IMG/VR virus record: IMGVR_UViG_3300044684_000298
Coordinates: 1-56,301 of that record
DNA: 56,301 nt
Origin: a virus
Reading direction: 5' to 3' (one strand)
How positions within the stretch are numbered: the stretch's first letter is position 1; every line of letters begins with the position of its first letter. The notes below the pieces were generated by a model. The model saw nothing but the letters and a program-made list of their open reading frames with translations, had not been told where the DNA came from and made no database searches. The position numbers were made by a program, and so were the translations under genes. Below, one piece after another: positions 8,085-56,301 of the stretch.

Positions 8085-8618
8085 TCAGCGCGTCCGGAGG
8101 TGGTGGAGCATCAGCAGCGCGGCGACCGCGTTCGCCGAGCGCACGTCGCCCTTCGCGACCAGCTCCGGTACCTGCGCCAGGGGCACCCACTCTCGGCGTT
8201 CGGACTCGAAGTCGTCTTCCGGGTGCCCGACGTACTCGGCGGACTCCGCCCAGAAGACGTGGTGCCGGGCGTCCGAGAGGCCGTTGGACGGCTCGACGGT
8301 CAGCAGCGGCCGGAGCGGCCCCGGGCGCCAGCCGGTTTCCTCCAGCATCTCCCGCGCGGCGGCGGCGGCCAGGTCCTCGCCGTCCTCGACGACGCCGGCG
8401 GCGAGTTCCCAGCCCCAGGTGTCGGTGATGAAGCGGTGCCGCCACAGAAGGAGGGCCTCGTCACGGTCGTTGACGGCGGTGGCGAGCGCGACCGGGCGCT
8501 GCCGGATGAGGTAGTGGTCGAGGTGGCGGCCGTCAGGCAGCTCGACGTCGGCGAGACGGACCCGGAGCCACGGGTTCTCGTAGACGGTGTGCTCTTCGAG
8601 GTTCTTCCAGACGGACAC
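8085..8618 (-). CDS. NUDIX hydrolase
   Basis: 177 residues. A perfect Nudix box lies at residues 75-97: G75, E81, R89-E90, E93-E94 and G96 with the standard spacing. The architecture is like ADP-ribose/NDP-sugar pyrophosphatases, hydrolysing a nucleoside diphosphate linked to another group. It is transcribed leftward, opposite to the late genes, next to a large HTH/TPR regulator; such pairs are common on Streptomyces chromosomes. It may be a lysogeny-expressed accessory (moron) gene. The substrate cannot be told from sequence. Confidence 0.9.
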   Translation of the reverse strand: MSVWKNLEEHTVYENPWLRVRLADVELPDGRHLDHYLIRQRPVALATAVNDRDEALLLWRHRFITDTWGWELAAGVVEDGEDLAAAAAREMLEETGWRPGPLRPLLTVEPSNGLSDARHHVFWAESAEYVGHPEDDFESERREWVPLAQVPELVAKGDVRSANAVAALLMLHHLRTR

Positions 8619-12307: not shown

Positions 12308-12335
12308 GATCATTTGGGAGATAAGTGGGAGATCA
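12308..12335 (+). repeat. Integrase arm-type site candidate, right copy
   Basis: GATCATTTGGGAG (12308-12320), six bases, GGGAGATCA (12327-12335): the partner of 12067-12094 on the other side of the attP core. An extra GGGAGATCA overlaps at 12304-12312. The copy overlaps the integrase stop codon. Confidence 0.7.
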
Positions 12336-13607
12336 ACTCTCCCAGACGCTCTCCCAACCCAGGTTCGCCATCGCCCGCCGGTACACGGCCTCCAGGCCGT
12401 CCAGCCGCTCGATCCGCATCTCCGGCGTCGGGTGCTGGTACACCGCCTTGATCCCCGACCGGATGTGCCCGGCCTGCTCGAACTGAAGCGGCGCCTTCAC
12501 CCCGATCTGCTCGGCGAGGCTGTCAGCAGTATGCCGCAACAGGTCCATGTTCATGCCCGGCAGGATCGGCTCCCACCCTTCCCGCGCCCGGTGGCCCTTC
12601 GACACCGGCAGGGCGGCCCGGCCGTCCGCGACCGGGCGCATCACCTGCCGCCCGAAGTTGGACCGCCGCCACCAGCCACCCGAGCGCGTGCAGAACAGGT
12701 ACTCGTGCTTCGCCGCCAGGCGGTCGGTCACGTGCGCCTGGAGCAGCGCCCACAGGAACGGCGGCACGTCCACATCCCGCAGCGACCCGTCGGTCTTCAG
12801 CGGCTCCAGGCCGAAGAACTGCCCGAGCTTGCGGCCGTCCGCGTCCCGGAGCTGGTACTCGGCGACCTCATCGACCAGGTGCAGCACGGGGCACGTGAAG
12901 TCCTTCGCCCCCCAGGGCTCCCGCCTCTCCCCGAGGCTCGAGCGGCGCAGCGCCAGGCTCTCTCCCCAACGCGGCCCGAGGAACCCGACGGTGAGGATGT
13001 GCAGGCCGTCCATCGGGCCTGCCCGACGCGCCATCCGCAGCAGCAGCTCCGGCGGCGCCACCTTCCCCTTGTTCTTCGCGGCGCGCTTCGCCTGGTTCTT
13101 CGCCTTCACCACCGCCGAGCGGCTGCGCCTGCGGCCGTAGATCGGGTTCACCAGGATCTTCTGCGCGTCGACCGCGCCGGTGAGGATCATCGACATGAGG
13201 GTCGTGCAGTGCGTCGCGGTCACGTCGTCATGGGACTCGGCGACCTTGTTGGCCCAAGCCTCGACCTCGAACCAGTTGATCTCCTGCAAGGGGATGAACT
13301 CCCACCGCGGGAAGATGTGGGTCTCCAGGCGCTCCCAGCGAGTGTTCACGGTGCGCCCGCGCGGGCTCTTGGCCTTCATCCACTCCCGCGCCCAGGCCCC
13401 GAAGAGCGTCCGGCCGCCTTCTGGGTCCACCCAGCGGCCGGCGCGGATCGCCGCCTCCTGCTCTTCGCCCCACTGCTCGGCGGTCTTCTTCGTGGGGAAG
13501 CCCGGCTCACTCCCCCACGTTCCGTCGGGCTTCTTGTAGCGGGCCCGCCAGGTGACCTTGCCTTTGCTGCCCTTCGCGGTGCTGACGCGCTTCTCTGCGT
13601 ACGCCAC
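12333..13607 (-). CDS. int: Tyrosine site-specific integrase
   Basis: 424 residues from the GTG at 13607, chosen for the GAAGGA seven bases upstream. The N-terminus has an arm-binding-like segment (AYAEKRVSTAKGSKG, WRARYKKPDGTW), then a SAM-like core-binding domain. Catalytic-domain motifs are the first Arg in GPRWGESLALR, the box LLRHTADSL, AGH, and the nucleophile Tyr in AVYQHPTPE. It integrates the phage at a tRNA gene using the adjacent attP. It lies 36 bases downstream of an XRE gene and is probably co-transcribed with it. Confidence 0.95.
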   Translation of the reverse strand: MAYAEKRVSTAKGSKGKVTWRARYKKPDGTWGSEPGFPTKKTAEQWGEEQEAAIRAGRWVDPEGGRTLFGAWAREWMKAKSPRGRTVNTRWERLETHIFPRWEFIPLQEINWFEVEAWANKVAESHDDVTATHCTTLMSMILTGAVDAQKILVNPIYGRRRSRSAVVKAKNQAKRAAKNKGKVAPPELLLRMARRAGPMDGLHILTVGFLGPRWGESLALRRSSLGERREPWGAKDFTCPVLHLVDEVAEYQLRDADGRKLGQFFGLEPLKTDGSLRDVDVPPFLWALLQAHVTDRLAAKHEYLFCTRSGGWWRRSNFGRQVMRPVADGRAALPVSKGHRAREGWEPILPGMNMDLLRHTADSLAEQIGVKAPLQFEQAGHIRSGIKAVYQHPTPEMRIERLDGLEAVYRRAMANLGWESVWES

Positions 13608-13642
13608 GGGGATGTCCTTCCGCCCCGCGGCGCACGCGGGGC

Positions 13643-14173
13643 CTATGTCTCGTCTGTCTCGTCGTCTGGTTCGGCGAAGATCTGCCGCGCCATGCGCTGA
13701 AGTTCGGCCCACCGCTTCCAGTCGCGCCGCATCTCCTCTTTGGTGAGCACGCGGCCGTCGGAGCGGGTGCGGATGAGGACGACGCCGCCGAGGGGGTCGG
13801 TGGGGTCGTCGATGACGTCGGTCTCGACCACGCGGCCGTCCTGGAGGGTGGCGCGGGCCCGCTCGGACAGGCCCTCGGGGAGTCCGGGGCCGGCCGGTGC
13901 GTCGTGGGCCGGGGTACCTGGGGCTGGGCTGGTCTCGGCGGGTGTGGGGTCGCTGCCGGCGAGGACCTGTTCGACGGAGTCGTCTGTCCAGCCGAAGTAC
14001 CTGGCGAGTGCGCGGTGGACGAGGGCGATCTTGGCGTATGGCTTGCCGCCCTCGATGCCCTGGATGGTGGCGCGTTTGACGCCTACGGCTTCAGCGAGTT
14101 CGACCTGTGTCAGGCGGCGCGCGTTGCGTTCGCGCGCGACCGTGTCGCCGAACCGTGCCCAGTCTCGCTCCAT
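13643..14173 (-). CDS. XRE-family regulator upstream of integrase (repressor candidate)
   Basis: 176 residues. The HTH lies at residues ~10-60 (RERNARRLTQVELAEAVGVKR, TIQGIEGGKPY), followed by a Pro/Ala-rich linker and a basic C-terminal region with IRTRSDGRVLTKEEMRRDW. It is divergent from the small XRE gene at 14396, with a ~220-base regulatory region between. That layout resembles a phage immunity switch, so this is the best candidate lysogeny repressor; alternatively it controls only int. Confidence 0.75.
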   Translation of the reverse strand: MERDWARFGDTVARERNARRLTQVELAEAVGVKRATIQGIEGGKPYAKIALVHRALARYFGWTDDSVEQVLAGSDPTPAETSPAPGTPAHDAPAGPGLPEGLSERARATLQDGRVVETDVIDDPTDPLGGVVLIRTRSDGRVLTKEEMRRDWKRWAELQRMARQIFAEPDDETDET

Positions 14174-31437: not shown

Positions 31438-32298
31438 CTACGACTTCCGAGGCGACCGCTTCGCCGCCTTCTTTGCTGGCGCCTTCTTCGCCGCCCGCTT
31501 CCCGGCCGGGGCCTTCTCCGGGTGCTCTTCCCGGGCCCGCGCCAGACTCGCCTCCAATGCCGCCATCAGATCCCCCGCAGCCGGCGGGAGCACCCGGCCG
31601 GCCTCCGGCGCCGGCAGGCCCTTCGCCTTCGCGTCCACCAGGTCCATGAGCGCCCGGCTGTACTCGTCCCGCTCCTGCTCCATCTCCCACCCGGTGGACA
31701 CGGCCTGCATGAGCTGGAGCGCCAGGTCGATCTCCGCCCCCGAGGGCTCCTGTGCGGCCTCCGGGGCGACGCCTCCGGGGTCGCGGACCTCGTCCGGCCA
31801 CAGGAGCGTGGTCATCGTCATGGTTCGCCCCCGGACGCCGAGGAGCACCAAGCTGTCGCGGGTGCGGAGGGCGGTGCGGGCGACGGCCACCTGCTCCGAG
31901 CGCAGCAGCGCCTCGCGCAGGAGGGCGTACGGGCGGCTGAAGGGCGCGGACGCGCCGAGGTAGTACGTGCGGTCCCAGAAGATCGGCTCGACCTGGCTGC
32001 GCGGGATGAAGCCGAGCACGCGGATCTCCTTGGTGTCCGGCGTCGGCAGCTGGGACAGGTCGTCGTCGGTCAGGACCAGCATCCGCCCGTCCGGCAGCTC
32101 GTAGCCGCGGGCGATCTCGTCCGGCCGCAGCTCCCGGCCGTCCAGGTCGCAGACGTTCCTCTGGCGTACCCGGCCTCCGTCGTCCGCGTGCACGCGATGC
32201 AGGGGCACGCGGTGGTGTTCGGTCGCGGCGTGCACGGTCACCGGGATCGTGACCAGGCCCCAGCTGATCACCTTCCGGGCGATGGTCGTGATCGCCAT
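31438..32298 (-). CDS. ku: Ku-type DNA end-binding protein
   Basis: 286 residues. The N-terminus AITTIARKVISWGLVTIPV, the segment LDGRELRPDEIARGYEL, PIFWDRTYYLG and TRDSLVLLGVRGRTMTM are the bacterial Ku beta-barrel/bridge motifs, in order. The last ~40 residues are Lys/Ala-rich (KRAAKKAPAKKAAKR), as in actinobacterial Ku C-terminal tails that bind DNA and stimulate the ligase. No LigD gene is seen, so host LigD would be the partner. Family knowledge: mycobacteriophages Omega and Corndog encode Ku to close short-overhang genome ends. A similar role is inferred here. Confidence 0.92.
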   Translation of the reverse strand: MAITTIARKVISWGLVTIPVTVHAATEHHRVPLHRVHADDGGRVRQRNVCDLDGRELRPDEIARGYELPDGRMLVLTDDDLSQLPTPDTKEIRVLGFIPRSQVEPIFWDRTYYLGASAPFSRPYALLREALLRSEQVAVARTALRTRDSLVLLGVRGRTMTMTTLLWPDEVRDPGGVAPEAAQEPSGAEIDLALQLMQAVSTGWEMEQERDEYSRALMDLVDAKAKGLPAPEAGRVLPPAAGDLMAALEASLARAREEHPEKAPAGKRAAKKAPAKKAAKRSPRKS

Positions 32299-34984: not shown

Positions 34985-37117
34985 GTGGCCACGCTCACCG
35001 CGCCCCCGCCCGTCGACCTGACCAAGCCCACCCACGACGAGCCCACCGAGCCCACCGAGCCGGTGGAGGCCGTCGACCGGCCCGACAACCCGCTCGCCGA
35101 CTGGCTCACCGTTCCGGACATCCCCGTCCTGCCCCACTGGGCCCGCTCCTGGCAGGCTCTCGGCGCCAACACCGGCGCCCTGTGCCGCCTCGGCGTCTGG
35201 CACGCCAAGTACCACGGCGTCCGCCTGCCCAAGTACGGCGCCAAGACCGCGTGGCTGGCCTCCCGGGGCGCGTTCCGCGCCTCCTGGCGACTGTGGCCCG
35301 TCCTGTCCGCGCACGAGCACACCAAGACCGTCAAGGCCCTCGCGGCGCAGCACCGGGCGAAGCCCGATGACGTCGCCCTCGCTGTGGCGCACCAGGACGC
35401 GCACCGGGTCCGTACCGTCGCCCGCCGCTGGCGGTTCGGCGCGGCCGCGCTGACCGCCGCCGCCGTGGTGACCACCTGGTCACTGGCGGACGGGTGGTGG
35501 AAGACCCTGCTCGGCGGTACCGTCCTCACCCTGCTCACGGTCCTGGGCTGGCACGAGGACGCCCGCATCCTCGACCAGGCCGCGCCGCCCCTGCGGCTCC
35601 AGATGAACGCCGAGCACCTCAACGACGCACTGCGCGCCGCCAGCCTCCTCAAGCCGGGGAAGGGCGACGACCCGGGCCCCAACGTCACCCTCGTCATGGG
35701 CCCGCTCCGCGACGGCAACGGTTGGTCGGTCGTCTTCGACCTCCCCCGAGGCGGCGGAAAGACCGCCAGCGACGTCCTCGCCAAGCGCGAGGTCCTCGCC
35801 CACGAACTCGGCGTCGACGAGATCCAGCTCGTCATGGCCCGGGTCCGCGCCGCCCAGGGCGGCAACGCCGGCCGCGTGTCGATGTGGGTCGCCGACGATG
35901 ACCCGTACCTCGCCCCGCCCGTGCCCTCCCCGCTGGTCAAGCTGGACACGTTCAGCATCTGGGACCCGGTGCCGTTCGGGCAGGACGCCCGCGGCAACCG
36001 CATCAGCGTGCCCGTCGTGTGGCAGTCGATGTTCTTCGGCGGCCTGCCCCGCCGCGGCAAGACCTTCACCCAGCGCCTGCTCACCGCCGCCGGTCTCCTC
36101 GACCCCTACGTTCGGCACTACGTCGCCGACTTCAAGGGCGGCCAGGACTGGATCCAGATGCGGCAGGTCGCTCACCGCATGGTCGTCGGCGCGGAGGACG
36201 ACGCGATCACGGCCTTCAAGGCCATGCTCAAGGAGCTGCTCGCCGAGATGGAGCGCCGCTTCGCGATCCTGCGCGGCCTGCCCACCTCAATCTGCCCCGA
36301 GGGGAAGCTGACGCCGCAGATCGTCATGAAGTACGGCCTGCCGTTCATCTTCCTGACGGTGGATGAGCTGCAAGAGGCGTTCCTCGCCATGGACGACAAG
36401 GAGCGGGAGGACGTCGTCGACGACCTGGCGCGGATCGCCCGCCGCGGCCCGGCCGCCGGCTTCATCTCGAACTACGCGTCGCAGCGGCCGGACGCCAAGT
36501 CGGTGCCGACGAAGCTGCGGGAGATCATCACGATCCGCTGCTGCACCCAGGTCACCGACAAGACGTCCAGCGACATGGTCCTCGGCTCGGGCAAGGCCGC
36601 GATGGGCGCGGACGCGTCGCTGCTGTCCGAGGATCACGTCGGCGTGACTGTGCTGGTCACCGGTCCGGCGTCGTTCGCGACGGTGAAGAACGACATGCTC
36701 ACCACGGCCGAGTTCAACGCCATGTGCGCCAAGGGCCGCGCCCTGCGGAAGGCGGCGGGTCAGCTGTCGGGCGACGCCGTCGGTGACCTCTCGTCGCTCG
36801 CGGACGAGCAGCAGATCACGATCCCGCCGATCGTCACCGACGTGCTGGAGGTGATGCGGCACTCCATCCGCATGTTCACCACCGACCTCCTCGCCGGGCT
36901 GGTGAACCTGGATGAGGACCGGTACGGCGACTTCGACCCGGAGCGGCTCGCCTCGGAGCTGGAGAAGGCCGGCGTCCGCCGGACGTCCCGCCAGGTCAAG
37001 ATCGACGGGGAGAACCGGGCGGGCTACCAGCGGCGCGACATTGAGGACGCGGTCCCGGTCGAGCTGCTCGCCCCGCGCCCGGTAGAGCCCCCCGCCTCTA
37101 CCGACCCCGCTACCTGA
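34985..37117 (+). CDS. FtsK/SpoIIIE-like DNA translocase (TraB/TraSA-type transfer protein)
   Basis: 710 residues, GTG behind CGAAGGAA. N-terminal ~150 residues soluble, then two transmembrane helices (~152-186, GAAALTAAAVVTTWSL and TLLGGTVLTLLTVLGW). The motor domain at ~240-600 has Walker A GGLPRRGKT (352-360) and Walker B FIFLTVDE (454-461). LPRGGGKT at 253-260 is a second P-loop-like stretch. The last ~60 residues (DPERLASELEKAGVRRTSRQ, ENRAGYQRRDIED) look like the winged-helix DNA-reading domain. Streptomyces TraB proteins move double-stranded plasmid DNA between mycelial cells using 8-base repeats; this is the closest match by layout. Confidence 0.88.
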   Translation: MATLTAPPPVDLTKPTHDEPTEPTEPVEAVDRPDNPLADWLTVPDIPVLPHWARSWQALGANTGALCRLGVWHAKYHGVRLPKYGAKTAWLASRGAFRASWRLWPVLSAHEHTKTVKALAAQHRAKPDDVALAVAHQDAHRVRTVARRWRFGAAALTAAAVVTTWSLADGWWKTLLGGTVLTLLTVLGWHEDARILDQAAPPLRLQMNAEHLNDALRAASLLKPGKGDDPGPNVTLVMGPLRDGNGWSVVFDLPRGGGKTASDVLAKREVLAHELGVDEIQLVMARVRAAQGGNAGRVSMWVADDDPYLAPPVPSPLVKLDTFSIWDPVPFGQDARGNRISVPVVWQSMFFGGLPRRGKTFTQRLLTAAGLLDPYVRHYVADFKGGQDWIQMRQVAHRMVVGAEDDAITAFKAMLKELLAEMERRFAILRGLPTSICPEGKLTPQIVMKYGLPFIFLTVDELQEAFLAMDDKEREDVVDDLARIARRGPAAGFISNYASQRPDAKSVPTKLREIITIRCCTQVTDKTSSDMVLGSGKAAMGADASLLSEDHVGVTVLVTGPASFATVKNDMLTTAEFNAMCAKGRALRKAAGQLSGDAVGDLSSLADEQQITIPPIVTDVLEVMRHSIRMFTTDLLAGLVNLDEDRYGDFDPERLASELEKAGVRRTSRQVKIDGENRAGYQRRDIEDAVPVELLAPRPVEPPASTDPAT

Positions 37118-49132: not shown

Positions 49133-49795
49133 ATGGCCGCCGACGCGCCCACGCCGCTGTGCACCTGGGCGCAGCTCACCGAAGGCGCGCTCGGCGACCT
49201 CGTGCGCTCCATCACCAGCCCCCAGGCGCAGACGGACCTGCTCTCCGAGGCCACCCGGATCTGCGAGTCCGCCACCCAGCGCCGCCTGACGCCGTTCACG
49301 GGGCTGGTGGAGACGGAGCGGTCGACGGGTATCGACCCGGACGAGTACATCGACGCCGGCAACGTCCCCCTCGACCTGGCGGGCACGCTCGGCAAGTCCT
49401 ACGCCTACGCGATGGGCACCACCTCGCTGGTGCGGCACGGCTGGCTCCAGCAGTGGGCCCCGCAGTTCCAGGACCTGTGGACCTACAGCATCCAGAACAT
49501 CACCATCCACCGCTCCTACGGCGGTGACCAGCCCGTCAATCTGGCGACGGTGCGCGGCCCGGACCCCGACACCGGGCACCTCTGGTACAACATCGGCACG
49601 TTCCTGCCGGTCGGCTCCATGGTCACCTACGTCTACGGCGGCGGCTACCAGACCATCCCCGCGGACCTGGTGCGGGCCGGGAAGTTCGTGGCCGCGTCGC
49701 TGGCGCTGAAGGAGCTGGACCCGTCCGAGCGCGGCCATGACCCGGACGTGCTCCTCGCGGACGCGCACGAGATCCTCGCCGACTACAGCAGGTGA
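49133..49795 (+). CDS. Head-tail connector (adaptor) protein
   Basis: 220 residues, ATG behind GAGGAG, 4 bases after the previous stop. N-terminal helices (WAQLTEGALGDLVRSITSPQAQTD split over two helices), ICESATQRR, and a C-terminal helix DLVRAGKFVAASLALKELD as in HK97 gp6-type adaptors. Located right after the capsid, where the portal adaptor is expected. Confidence 0.75.
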   Translation: MAADAPTPLCTWAQLTEGALGDLVRSITSPQAQTDLLSEATRICESATQRRLTPFTGLVETERSTGIDPDEYIDAGNVPLDLAGTLGKSYAYAMGTTSLVRHGWLQQWAPQFQDLWTYSIQNITIHRSYGGDQPVNLATVRGPDPDTGHLWYNIGTFLPVGSMVTYVYGGGYQTIPADLVRAGKFVAASLALKELDPSERGHDPDVLLADAHEILADYSR

Positions 49796-49798
49796 CCC

Positions 49799-50491
49799 GT
49801 GGCCTTTCACCACCACCGGCGGGGCTGGCACATCTCGAAGGCCGCGCGCAGGCGCGAGTCCGCGCGGATGCGCGGCCGGCACCACCACCACAAGGGCCAC
49901 CGGGAGTCGGCGAAGACCCGCGCGAAGATCCGGGCGCGTCTGAAGGGGCGCCACCACCGGCACACGATCCGGCACAACAGGTCGAAGGCCCGGCGGCGCG
50001 AGCACCGCAAGCGCGGTTACCACCTGAAGCACAAGCGCAAGCGGGGCTACCACCTCAAGCACAAGCGACACCAGCGTCGGAAGGCGCACCGGCGCCGCGG
50101 CTATCACCTGAAGCACCCGAGGAAGCGCGGCTATCACCTGAAGCACCGCCGCAAGTCGCCGCGCCGCCGGCCGGGGCACCGCAGGACGGTGACGCATCAC
50201 CGGTCGGCACGGGGGCGCTCCCGGCGGGTGCGGGCGGTCGCGTACCGGCGGCGGGTGCATCACGCGAAGGTCGCCCGGCAGCGCCGCGCCAGGCGCCTGA
50301 TCCACCGCACCAGGCCGCGCATCCAGCGCGTGATCCGCCAAGGCATGCGCCATCACCGCGTCATCCACCAGGGGCACCACGGCAAGCAGGCCGCCTACCG
50401 GGCGCGCCGCAACGCCGGGCACGGGCGGCTCACCACCCGCCATGACGCCGCCGTGGCCCGCCTGAAGCGCAAGAAGGGGAGGCGGCGATGA
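49799..50491 (+). CDS. Extremely basic His/Arg/Lys repeat protein
   Basis: 230 residues, GTG start right after the adaptor stop; ends in an ATGA overlap with the next gene. About two thirds of residues are Arg, His or Lys; acidic residues are almost absent. A ten-residue unit KRGYHLKHKR occurs at residues 71-80 and 81-90, with variants at 99-108 and 109-118. No globular domain seen. Third codon positions are nearly all G/C in this frame, confirming it over the alternative frame. It may be a protamine-like DNA or RNA-binding virion protein, or a head-closure factor. Family unknown to me. Confidence 0.8.
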   Translation: MAFHHHRRGWHISKAARRRESARMRGRHHHHKGHRESAKTRAKIRARLKGRHHRHTIRHNRSKARRREHRKRGYHLKHKRKRGYHLKHKRHQRRKAHRRRGYHLKHPRKRGYHLKHRRKSPRRRPGHRRTVTHHRSARGRSRRVRAVAYRRRVHHAKVARQRRARRLIHRTRPRIQRVIRQGMRHHRVIHQGHHGKQAAYRARRNAGHGRLTTRHDAAVARLKRKKGRRR

Positions 50492-50985
50492 GCCTCGCTG
50501 ACGCCGTCACCCGCGAGACTGCGTGGCTGACCACCACCGGCGACGGCCTCCCCGCGCTGCTCACCGCCAACGGTGGCCCGTGGGACGTCATCCAGGCGTA
50601 CCAGCCGCGCACCCCGCAGACCCGCAAGACGCAGCTGTACGTCGTGCGGCGCCGCTTCCCGACCCGCCGGTTCGCCCAGCAGCGCCGCATCGCCACGCAC
50701 TACTTCCAGCTGCGCGCCAGGTGGCCGATCGGCGCGTCCACCACCGGCACGGGCATCGCCGAGGCCGAGCAGCAGGCCCTCGACAACGCCCTGATGCTCC
50801 TCGTCGAGCGGATCGAGGGCTTCCCCCTCGACAAGAGCCACGGGGGCCGGTTCCTGTCCGTCGCCGAGGCCCCGAACGGGGCGGAGATCGACGTGCAGCT
50901 CGGCGACCCCGAGCAGGAGATCCCGACCGGGTTCCTCACCGCCACCGTGGCCTACACGGCCGATGACCAGGACTACATCGAATAG
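50488..50985 (+). CDS. Tail terminator/completion-like protein
   Basis: 165 residues, ATGA overlap with the basic gene. Features TAWLTTTGDGLPALLTANGG, PIGASTTGTGIAEAEQQALDN and an acidic C-terminus (TATVAYTADDQDYIE). The size, position and pattern fit the tail-terminator/gpU-like slot ahead of the major tail protein. No firm family. Confidence 0.6.
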   Translation: MSLADAVTRETAWLTTTGDGLPALLTANGGPWDVIQAYQPRTPQTRKTQLYVVRRRFPTRRFAQQRRIATHYFQLRARWPIGASTTGTGIAEAEQQALDNALMLLVERIEGFPLDKSHGGRFLSVAEAPNGAEIDVQLGDPEQEIPTGFLTATVAYTADDQDYIE

Positions 50986-54171: not shown

Positions 54172-56301
54172 GTGGAGTCGTTCCTGCCCCCGGTCCTCGT
54201 CGAGCTCGGGGCCGAGGACACCGGCGCCGTCAAGGCCATCCGCGGTCTCGTCAATGCTCTCAAGACGCTCCCGGAGGTCGCCACCGCGGCGTCGGACGCG
54301 CTGAAGGTCGTCCAGGACGCGGCCGTGCAACTCGGCGCGGGCATCACCGAGCCCCTGGACGCGGCCAAGACCAGCATCCGGGGCCTGGCGTCGGCGATGC
54401 GCGCGCTCGCGAAAACGGCGCAGACCACGGACGACGAGGGCCAGACAGCGATGCAGCAGATCGCTGCGTCCGCGCGGGAGATGGGCGCCGCCGTCGCCGA
54501 AGGCAGCACCGCGGCCCGCGAATCGCTCTCTGGGCTGCGCGGGGACTTCCGCACCACCGCGACCGAGGCCACCGGCGCCGCCGCCCAGACCACCGCCGCC
54601 GCACGCGAGTCCGCGACCGCGGCCGAGACCAGCGCGGGCGCCGCGTCGACCTCGGCAGCCGAGGCCTCGGCGGCGATGGGCGAGACCGCCGGTGCGCTGA
54701 TGAAGTACGTCACCGGTCTCGCGGGCACGGCGTTCGGCCTGTTCGAGGCGGTCAAGGGCGCGACGAAGTTCAACAGCGAGATCACCAAGCTCAACACCCA
54801 GGCCGGGGTGTCGAAGAGCCAGCTCGCGGGTCTGGGCAACGGCGTGCTCGACCTGGCGGGGCAGGTCGGCGAGAGTCCGGATTCGCTGGCGGAGGCCCTG
54901 TTCCACGTCGAGTCGAACTTCGCGAGCCTGGGGATCACCGCGCCGAAGGCACTCGACATCGTCAAGGTCGCGGCCGAGGGGGCGCAGGTCGGCGGCGCGA
55001 ACCTGGTCGACGTCACCAACGCCCTCACCGCCGCCGTCGCGAGCGGGATCCCGGGCGTGCAGAACATGCAGCAGGCCATGGGCGCGCTGAACGCGATCGT
55101 GGGCGCGGGCGACATGCAGATGCAGGACCTGGCCGACGCCTTCGGCTCGGGCATGGTCGCCACCGTCAAGGGCTTCGGCCTGTCACTGGACGACGTCGGC
55201 GCCGCCCTCGCTGTCTTCGGCGACAACAACATCCGAGGGGCGAAGGCCGGAACCGACCTGCGCATGACCGTGCAGGCTCTCGCGCAGCCCGTGTCCACGG
55301 CCACGGACGTGATGCACCGGCTCGGCATCACGACCGGAACGTTCGCCCAGGACATGCGCTCCGGAGGCCTGCTCAAGGCCATGGACGACCTGATCACGCG
55401 CATGCGCAACGCCGGGATCAACGCCAAGGAGCAGGGCCAGATCATCACCGAGCTTTTCGGCAAGAAGGCCGGCTCCGGCATCAATGTCCTGGCTGACCAG
55501 ATGGACCGGCTGCGGTCGAAGTACCCGGCGATCACGGACGGGGCGAACAAGTTCGGCGGGGCGTGGCAGACCGCTTCCCACACGGCGGGGCAGGAGTTCA
55601 ATGACCTGAAGTCGGGTCTGGAGGCGCTGGGGGTCAAGCTCGGTACGGCACTCCTGCCGCCGCTGACGAAGGTCCTGGGGTGGATCCGGCAGGGCGTCAC
55701 GTGGGTCACGCAGCACAAGGCGGCGGTGCAGGCCCTGGCATCGGTGCTCGGCGGCGTGCTCGTCGCGGCCCTGTGGGGCATCGTGTCCGCGCTGGTGGCG
55801 ATGGACTCGGTGCCGATCGTGGCCGTGATCGCCGGGATCGCCGCGGCGCTGATCTTCGCCTACGTGCACTTCAAGAGCTTCCGCACCGTCGTGGACGACG
55901 TCGCGAAGTTCCTGAAGAGCGTGTTCGTCGGCGCGATCCACATCGCCAAGGACGTCATCAAGGACCTGGTGTCCTGGTGGAACGGGCACAAGCAGATCTT
56001 CATCGACGCCTGGAACGACCTGATGAAGGGGGTCCACAAGGCCGCGTTGTGGTTCCAGGTGAACGTGATCAACTGGATCAAGTATTTGATCTTCGAGGTC
56101 GAGACATGGTGGAAGGCCCACTCTCAGCAGATCGCCGAGGTCTGGCACGTCGTCTGGGAAACGATCAAGACGGTTCTGAAGGTCGCGTGGGACGGCACGA
56201 TCAAGCCCACGATCACGCTGATCGTGTTCTTCTGGAAGAACGCCTGGGACACCATCCGCGACGTCTTCAAGCTGGTCTGGAACGTGATCAAGGACGTGCT
56301 C
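54172..56301 (+). CDS. Tail tape-measure protein, N-terminal part (continues off the right edge)
   Basis: 710 codons visible; GTG at 54172 with GGGGG seven bases upstream. Residues ~1-180 are Ala-rich coiled coil. Residues ~190-480 are the TP901-type core: FNSEITKLNTQAGVSKSQLA, LAEALFHVESNFASLG, MQQAMGALNAIVGAGDMQ, NNIRGAKAGTDLRMTVQ, ITELFGKKAGSG. Two hydrophobic segments follow (~525-565), then Trp/Lys-rich amphipathic helices. It is open at the window end; the C-terminal part is at 1-1163. Confidence 0.93.
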   Translation, partial: MESFLPPVLVELGAEDTGAVKAIRGLVNALKTLPEVATAASDALKVVQDAAVQLGAGITEPLDAAKTSIRGLASAMRALAKTAQTTDDEGQTAMQQIAASAREMGAAVAEGSTAARESLSGLRGDFRTTATEATGAAAQTTAAARESATAAETSAGAASTSAAEASAAMGETAGALMKYVTGLAGTAFGLFEAVKGATKFNSEITKLNTQAGVSKSQLAGLGNGVLDLAGQVGESPDSLAEALFHVESNFASLGITAPKALDIVKVAAEGAQVGGANLVDVTNALTAAVASGIPGVQNMQQAMGALNAIVGAGDMQMQDLADAFGSGMVATVKGFGLSLDDVGAALAVFGDNNIRGAKAGTDLRMTVQALAQPVSTATDVMHRLGITTGTFAQDMRSGGLLKAMDDLITRMRNAGINAKEQGQIITELFGKKAGSGINVLADQMDRLRSKYPAITDGANKFGGAWQTASHTAGQEFNDLKSGLEALGVKLGTALLPPLTKVLGWIRQGVTWVTQHKAAVQALASVLGGVLVAALWGIVSALVAMDSVPIVAVIAGIAAALIFAYVHFKSFRTVVDDVAKFLKSVFVGAIHIAKDVIKDLVSWWNGHKQIFIDAWNDLMKGVHKAALWFQVNVINWIKYLIFEVETWWKAHSQQIAEVWHVVWETIKTVLKVAWDGTIKPTITLIVFFWKNAWDTIRDVFKLVWNVIKDVL
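56188..56301 (+). repeat. 114-base exact repeat, copy at the right end
   Basis: Identical to 420-533. The codon frame is the same in both copies. Joining base 56301 straight to base 1 would break the frame, so the two window ends are not adjacent as they stand. Confidence 0.9.

Follow-up and report, generated by a model that had tools for sequence, protein, structure and literature searches.

A hyper-basic repeat protein with degenerate NUMOD3 motifs, encoded beside a putative head-tail adaptor: a candidate slot for DNA-binding proteins in tailed actinophages

The DNA of tailed phages that are packaged by a motor is generally viewed as being neutralised by small ions and polyamines rather than by protamines. 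At the level of individual residues, the NUMOD3 helix of I-TevI lies in the minor groove of DNA. NUMOD3 serves homing endonucleases such as I-TevI as a module for DNA binding (PMC1564403, PMC3943268); the domain make-up of this enzyme has been described (PMC1564403), and it also acts as an autorepressor (PMC3943268). A functional precedent for a viral protein that is both cationic and rich in repeats is ascovirus P64, which condenses viral DNA (PMC6163548) and is no relative of the protein considered here.

The window, i.e., the whole stretch of DNA that was analyzed, is a virus record of 56,301 bases. The gene under study (49799..50491, + strand, 230 amino acids, GTG start) lies in what we call the slot, between a putative head-tail adaptor (49133..49795, +), which served as the anchor for our survey of relatives, and a conserved downstream gene, a putative tail terminator (50488..50985, +). 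The sequence-only reading had placed it between adaptor and tail terminator. The position between these two genes stands, but the adaptor label is weakly supported by PHROG (phrog_442, E 9e-4; relatives of the gene are found in 64 viral contigs) and the terminator label is positional, the downstream gene being 45-72% identical to its relatives and matching nothing in PHROG, Pfam or NCBIfam. Among isolate phages, no match was obtained by blastn of the neighbourhood, by tblastn of the slot protein or by searches with the adaptor and the downstream gene. The MCP had a single match there, Leptospira phage LE3 with 26% identity, and the terminase had many, none above 60% identity. The hosts of the phage are taken to be soil bacteria similar to Streptomyces. 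The hosts named for relatives are Streptomyces, Streptantibioticus, Peterkaempfera and Catenulispora, and an FtsK/SpoIIIE-like protein (34985-37117, +), an integrase (12333-13712, -) and a NUDIX hydrolase (8085-8618, -) in the window are consistent with a temperate actinophage. The window also encodes Ku, a bacterial end-joining factor (31438-32298, -; PF02735, E 2.3e-41). Tape-measure-like sequence is found at both ends of the record (54172-56301 and 18-1163, +), which suggests that the genome is nearly complete and circularly permuted and that these are not natural ends.

Translation and residue counts agree with the earlier description of a 230-residue Arg/His/Lys protein with four GYHLKH repeats. 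Arg, His and Lys account for 30%, 16% and 10% of the residues, respectively (56% together), and with 4 acidic residues of 230, a pI of ~12 and a predicted charge of ~+90 at pH 7, the protein shares the hyper-basic, nearly acid-free character of the slot family; no other ORF of such make-up is present in the window. Exactly four GYHLKH copies start at residues 73, 83, 101 and 111 (repeat region, residues 73-116, 50015..50146, +). These arose when 72 nt were duplicated internally at a spacing of 84 nt, and related repeats occur in 11 other proteins. The C-terminal basic tail, from HHGKQ onwards (residues 193-230, 50375..50488, +), resembles the tails of L001, L008 and the NUMOD3-array protein L016 above shuffled sequences. 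The gene was also said to be coupled at both ends, and it is: the adaptor stop TGA (49793-49795) is followed after 3 nt by the GTG, with AGGTGA just upstream, and the TGA of the slot gene overlaps the downstream ATG (ATGA, 50488-50491), preceded by GGGGAGG.

The ORF was confirmed as a real gene. Its GC content at the three codon positions (0.73/0.55/0.94) follows that of the flanking genes (0.65/0.49/0.98 and 0.68/0.50/0.97), bearing out the claim that its codon use fits its neighbours, whereas the alternative frame at 49792 gives the wrong pattern (0.94/0.73/0.55). Purifying selection is seen in the homologous frame of relatives. For the pair L010/L011, 74 synonymous versus 20 nonsynonymous codons were counted in this frame, with no stops and a dN/dS of ~0.13, as opposed to 10 versus 86 and 2 versus 88 in the other forward frames. 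Across close relatives, the synonymous to nonsynonymous counts were 74:20, 75:17, 34:20 and 33:23, with dN/dS in close pairs of ~0.13-0.25; the other forward frames were strongly nonsynonymous and one reverse frame was intermediate. Codon-position GC and this frame-specific synonymous change rule out the 49792 frame as the true gene, and neither its conservation nor absence of the gene from relatives with a broken frame, the outcomes that the sequence-only reading had set against the gene, was found. When the window gene was compared with L001, its closest slot relative, 39 synonymous and 90 nonsynonymous codons were counted (dN/dS ~0.68); no alternative frame scores better, and the alternative frames gain stops, yet constraint on the window's own version is thus weakly shown. 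A spurious ORF in GC-rich DNA could be argued for, as other frames also hold long overlapping ORFs, but codon-position GC, frame-specific synonymous change and the keeping of the slot across phages speak against it, and we reject this reading as having a negligible probability.

Direct searches of Pfam, PHROG, NCBIfam and PDB sequences with the window protein returned nothing; PF07460, the Pfam NUMOD3 family, was not matched at its gathering cut-off of 20.4 bits. Relatives of the slot protein were obtained from viral contigs. Of these, L001, L002 and L003 score above this cut-off (24.4-30.9 bits), and two degenerate NUMOD3 motifs can be aligned to theirs: the first covers residues 13-26 (SKAARRRESARMRG, 49835..49876, +) and the second residues 37-51 (SAKTRAKIRARLKGR, 49907..49951, +). 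When residues 1-58 were compared with NUMOD3 slot proteins, z values of 12-15 were obtained and 0 of 300 shuffles scored as high. In an AF2 model that is otherwise poor (pTM 0.18), the best-supported helices coincide with both motifs (helix 14-25 in a block with pLDDT 68-83, and helix 38-48 in a block with pLDDT 70-80). The slot-family profile reached a sole PDB sequence, 1i3j, the DNA-binding domain of I-TevI, at SDITKSKISEKMKGKK; with an E of 0.33 this match is not significant by itself, yet it falls on the NUMOD3 segment and is suggestive. The statement that no known protein of this kind comes to mind thus overlooked NUMOD3, of which two degenerate copies lie at the N-terminus. The protamine-like, nucleic-acid-binding reading fared better, the NUMOD3 homology and the cationic protein in nearly all relatives giving it stronger support than amino acid composition by itself. 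DNA binding by the slot family is well supported by these sequence comparisons, and for the window protein itself we infer it.

For the slot survey, the gene next to the adaptor was considered in 58 distinct loci, many of which are contig fragments. A basic, acid-poor slot gene was present at 52 of the 58. NUMOD3-type arrays are found in 32 loci (L024 by eye), NUMOD3 together with YHLKH in 8 (the window included), YHLKH only in 2, other basic proteins in 8 and a basic region with a globular C-terminal domain in 2; the remaining 6 have no slot gene. Pfam NUMOD3 was matched at E <= 0.01 by 35 of the 50 slot proteins scanned (best E 3.7e-22), and it is the only domain that recurs in slot relatives. 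The arrays often contain 5-9 tandem copies at a spacing of ~22 residues, mostly with zero acidic residues and without a nuclease, and an AF2 model of one of them (pTM 0.25) displays helices every ~22 residues joined by flexible linkers. The order adaptor, slot gene, terminator-like gene is common to nearly all occupied loci and is also that of the window. One array gene, L050:1907-2479, follows the terminator-like gene, reversing the order. In L038:1178-1915 and L043:1260-1820, the slot proteins are built of Ala/Lys/Arg helical repeats (LTPAQRAARxAK), of which L038 weakly resembles the eukaryotic STPR DNA-binding repeats (PF21107, E 0.013, below cut-off).

In a separate test, 297 genomes from a single host family were searched with an array profile; 7 of them matched, including the centre genome, and in all 7 the array adjoins the adaptor. 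The same type of search across 394 genomes of the class (E <= 1e-8) gave no match beyond the centre genome, and when genome contigs were scanned with the alignment of slot proteins, none of the 34 pattern matches was confirmed. Among isolate phages, the sole matches of an array protein were homing endonucleases, one in a Xanthomonas phage and one in a Pseudanabaena phage. In the part of the literature on NUMOD3 and phages that was covered, no account of arrays in structural genes was found. The slot family changes fast and is apparently undescribed.

A His-rich connector protein responsive to metal or pH, in which GYHLKH would serve as a ligand for Zn or Ni or let go of DNA when the pH shifts, would agree with the 16% His of the window protein, its HHHH and HHH runs and the regular spacing of GYHLKH, and with the repeat's Tyr, Leu and His being among the columns kept best. 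Across slot proteins, however, His varies between 4 and 29%; relatives reach a similar charge through Arg, Lys and Ala-rich helices, and the NUMOD3 arrays that sister phages have at this position are poorer in His. The earlier suggestion of control by pH or metal ions is thus not supported, and we consider it very improbable.

The 3' ends of the slot genes offer another reading. In the window, the Shine-Dalgarno string GGGGAGG lies within the codons of the Lys/Arg tail, together with the ATGA overlap (50471..50490, +), and in 41 of 43 loci the AGG/GGAGG codons of the basic tail likewise double as a Shine-Dalgarno-like string for the next gene, whose start is overlapped in 20 of the 43. The protein might thus bind late mRNA or ribosomes, or be kept mainly because its coupled frame and embedded Shine-Dalgarno govern translation of the next gene, with its charge being partly a by-product of AGG-rich codons. 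Such a signal, however, accounts for the last few residues only, NUMOD3 homology points to DNA, and in slotless relatives the terminator-like gene directly follows the adaptor, so no spacer is needed. A role in RNA binding or translation coupling is thus, in our opinion, decidedly improbable.

On the adaptor tree, the window groups with eight phages (support 99; adaptor identity up to 77%), all of which carry NUMOD3 arrays. Because these nearest kin all carry NUMOD3 arrays, it is likely that in the window lineage most of such an array gave way to the GYHLKH array by modular replacement, with both ends being kept. In L008, NUMOD3 and YHLKH modules are interleaved. Over the 58 tips, at least 17 changes of slot type are required, and to place the 10 rows of YHLKH type, 9 changes are needed. 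Slot content thus turns over much faster than the neighbour genes and outpaces the adaptor phylogeny, while its cationic character is kept; a charge that stays while the sequence shifts suggests that what is selected is DNA binding in bulk and of weak specificity. The same turnover could reflect an arms race, if the protein were carried in the virion and ejected as a coat that protects the DNA against restriction and further DNA-targeting defences, or that acts on the host nucleoid. Two slot proteins, L041:6996-7964 and L061:6670-7356, have been counted in favor of this, as they join a Lys/Ala-rich basic N-terminus to a similar-looking globular C-terminal region that appears papain-like. This appearance, however, is a Cys...His pattern judged by eye, neither Pfam nor NCBIfam gave a match, and the dN/dS of 0.13-0.25 in close pairs is not elevated. 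We regard an ejected coat with these roles as unlikely.

Homing endonucleases use NUMOD domains as their DNA-binding modules (PMC1564403, PMC3943268), and the slot gene may alternatively descend from a free-standing enzyme of this type, domesticated or decaying, that lost its nuclease and now serves as a local DNA-binding regulator, e.g., by autorepression of the late operon. In PHROG, two families of homing endonucleases have matches to 7 slot proteins each, the insertion place between two genes is fixed and relatives with an empty site exist. Nonetheless, no nuclease domain was found in the surveyed slot proteins, and Pfam, PHROG and NCBIfam revealed no GIY-YIG, HNH or similar catalytic domain in the window protein. 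The arrays have also expanded to 5-9 copies and are under purifying selection, and the fact that unrelated basic proteins have taken their place suggests selection on a bulk property and not on a specific site. Such a descent to a local regulator is, accordingly, rather improbable.

The explanation that we favor, and to which we would assign about an even chance, is that the slot encodes a late, largely sequence-nonspecific dsDNA-binding protein acting on the phage's own DNA. The two NUMOD3-type helices would contact the minor groove, while the long, flexible Arg/His/Lys-rich arm with its GYHLKH repeats would neutralise the backbone; in other phages of the slot family, arrays of 5-9 NUMOD3 helices would do the same job. 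A late role on phage DNA is suggested because the gene lies within the connector cassette, where its product would be synthesized together with the head-tail connector proteins. As a nearly acid-free chain with a charge of ~+90, the window protein is expected to bind nucleic acid. It would help to compact or retain DNA, both while this is being packaged and inside the virion, and/or coat the DNA that enters the next cell; both virion location and compaction are proposed here from the features described above. By calculation, ~126 copies would be enough to offset the charge of 10% of the phosphates in a 56-kb genome, such that a modest copy number in the virion could matter. Several points weigh against this explanation: tailed phages package by motor and no need for a protamine is known in them, strongly basic proteins also bind RNA, and 6 of the 58 adaptor loci are without a slot gene. 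The function may thus be dispensable, or otherwise met, in some relatives; among those of the six whose records were checked, NUMOD3 was not found elsewhere.

More tentatively, one may suppose that tailed actinophages possess a dedicated slot for a virion DNA-coating protein that was repeatedly rebuilt from different DNA-binding repeat modules, i.e., NUMOD3 arrays, GYHLKH arrays, STPR-like helices, and H1-like Lys/Ala regions with a globular C-terminal domain. In other words, and with the same reserve, a motor-packaged phage would have a protamine- or chromatin-like layer. If this is true, the keeping of a late-gene slot in which cationic repeat proteins bear minor-groove motifs challenges the view of neutralisation by ions and polyamines, NUMOD3 modules have been reused outside homing endonucleases, and the slot amounts to an experiment made by nature, where charge and DNA binding persist although the sequence may vary freely. 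Prophages with the slot gene occur in culturable Streptomyces, e.g., that of L076 in Streptomyces sp. SDr-06 and that of L078 in S. olivoverticillatus.

Compared with the known systems, the closest likeness is to NUMOD3 of homing endonucleases. Slot relatives carry the helical motif S-x-x-T-[RK]-x-K-I-S-x-x-[LM]-K-G-[RK] above the Pfam cut-off, whereas the window copies are degenerate and fall below this threshold; unlike the endonucleases, the slot proteins have no nuclease, the motif of the relatives stands in long tandem arrays and the gene lies in a structural block. STPR repeats (PF21107) are weakly resembled by L038, the slot protein of a different phage, and not by the window protein. 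With the protamine-like viral core proteins, such as baculovirus P6.9, the slot protein shares an Arg-rich, acid-poor composition and a proposed role in charge neutralisation, but P6.9 is a protein of 6.9 kDa regulated by phosphorylation, and a sequence relation between the two is not claimed. The ascovirus P64 family, with its vs2C-ad motifs and 14 tandem Arg/Ser-rich repeats, likewise offers a comparison of how such a protein may work and no claim of homology: both are large cationic proteins (pI ~12) of dsDNA viruses with tandem basic repeats, while P64 belongs to a eukaryotic virus, has Ser/Arg repeats, and its DNA condensation and abundance in the virion have been demonstrated.
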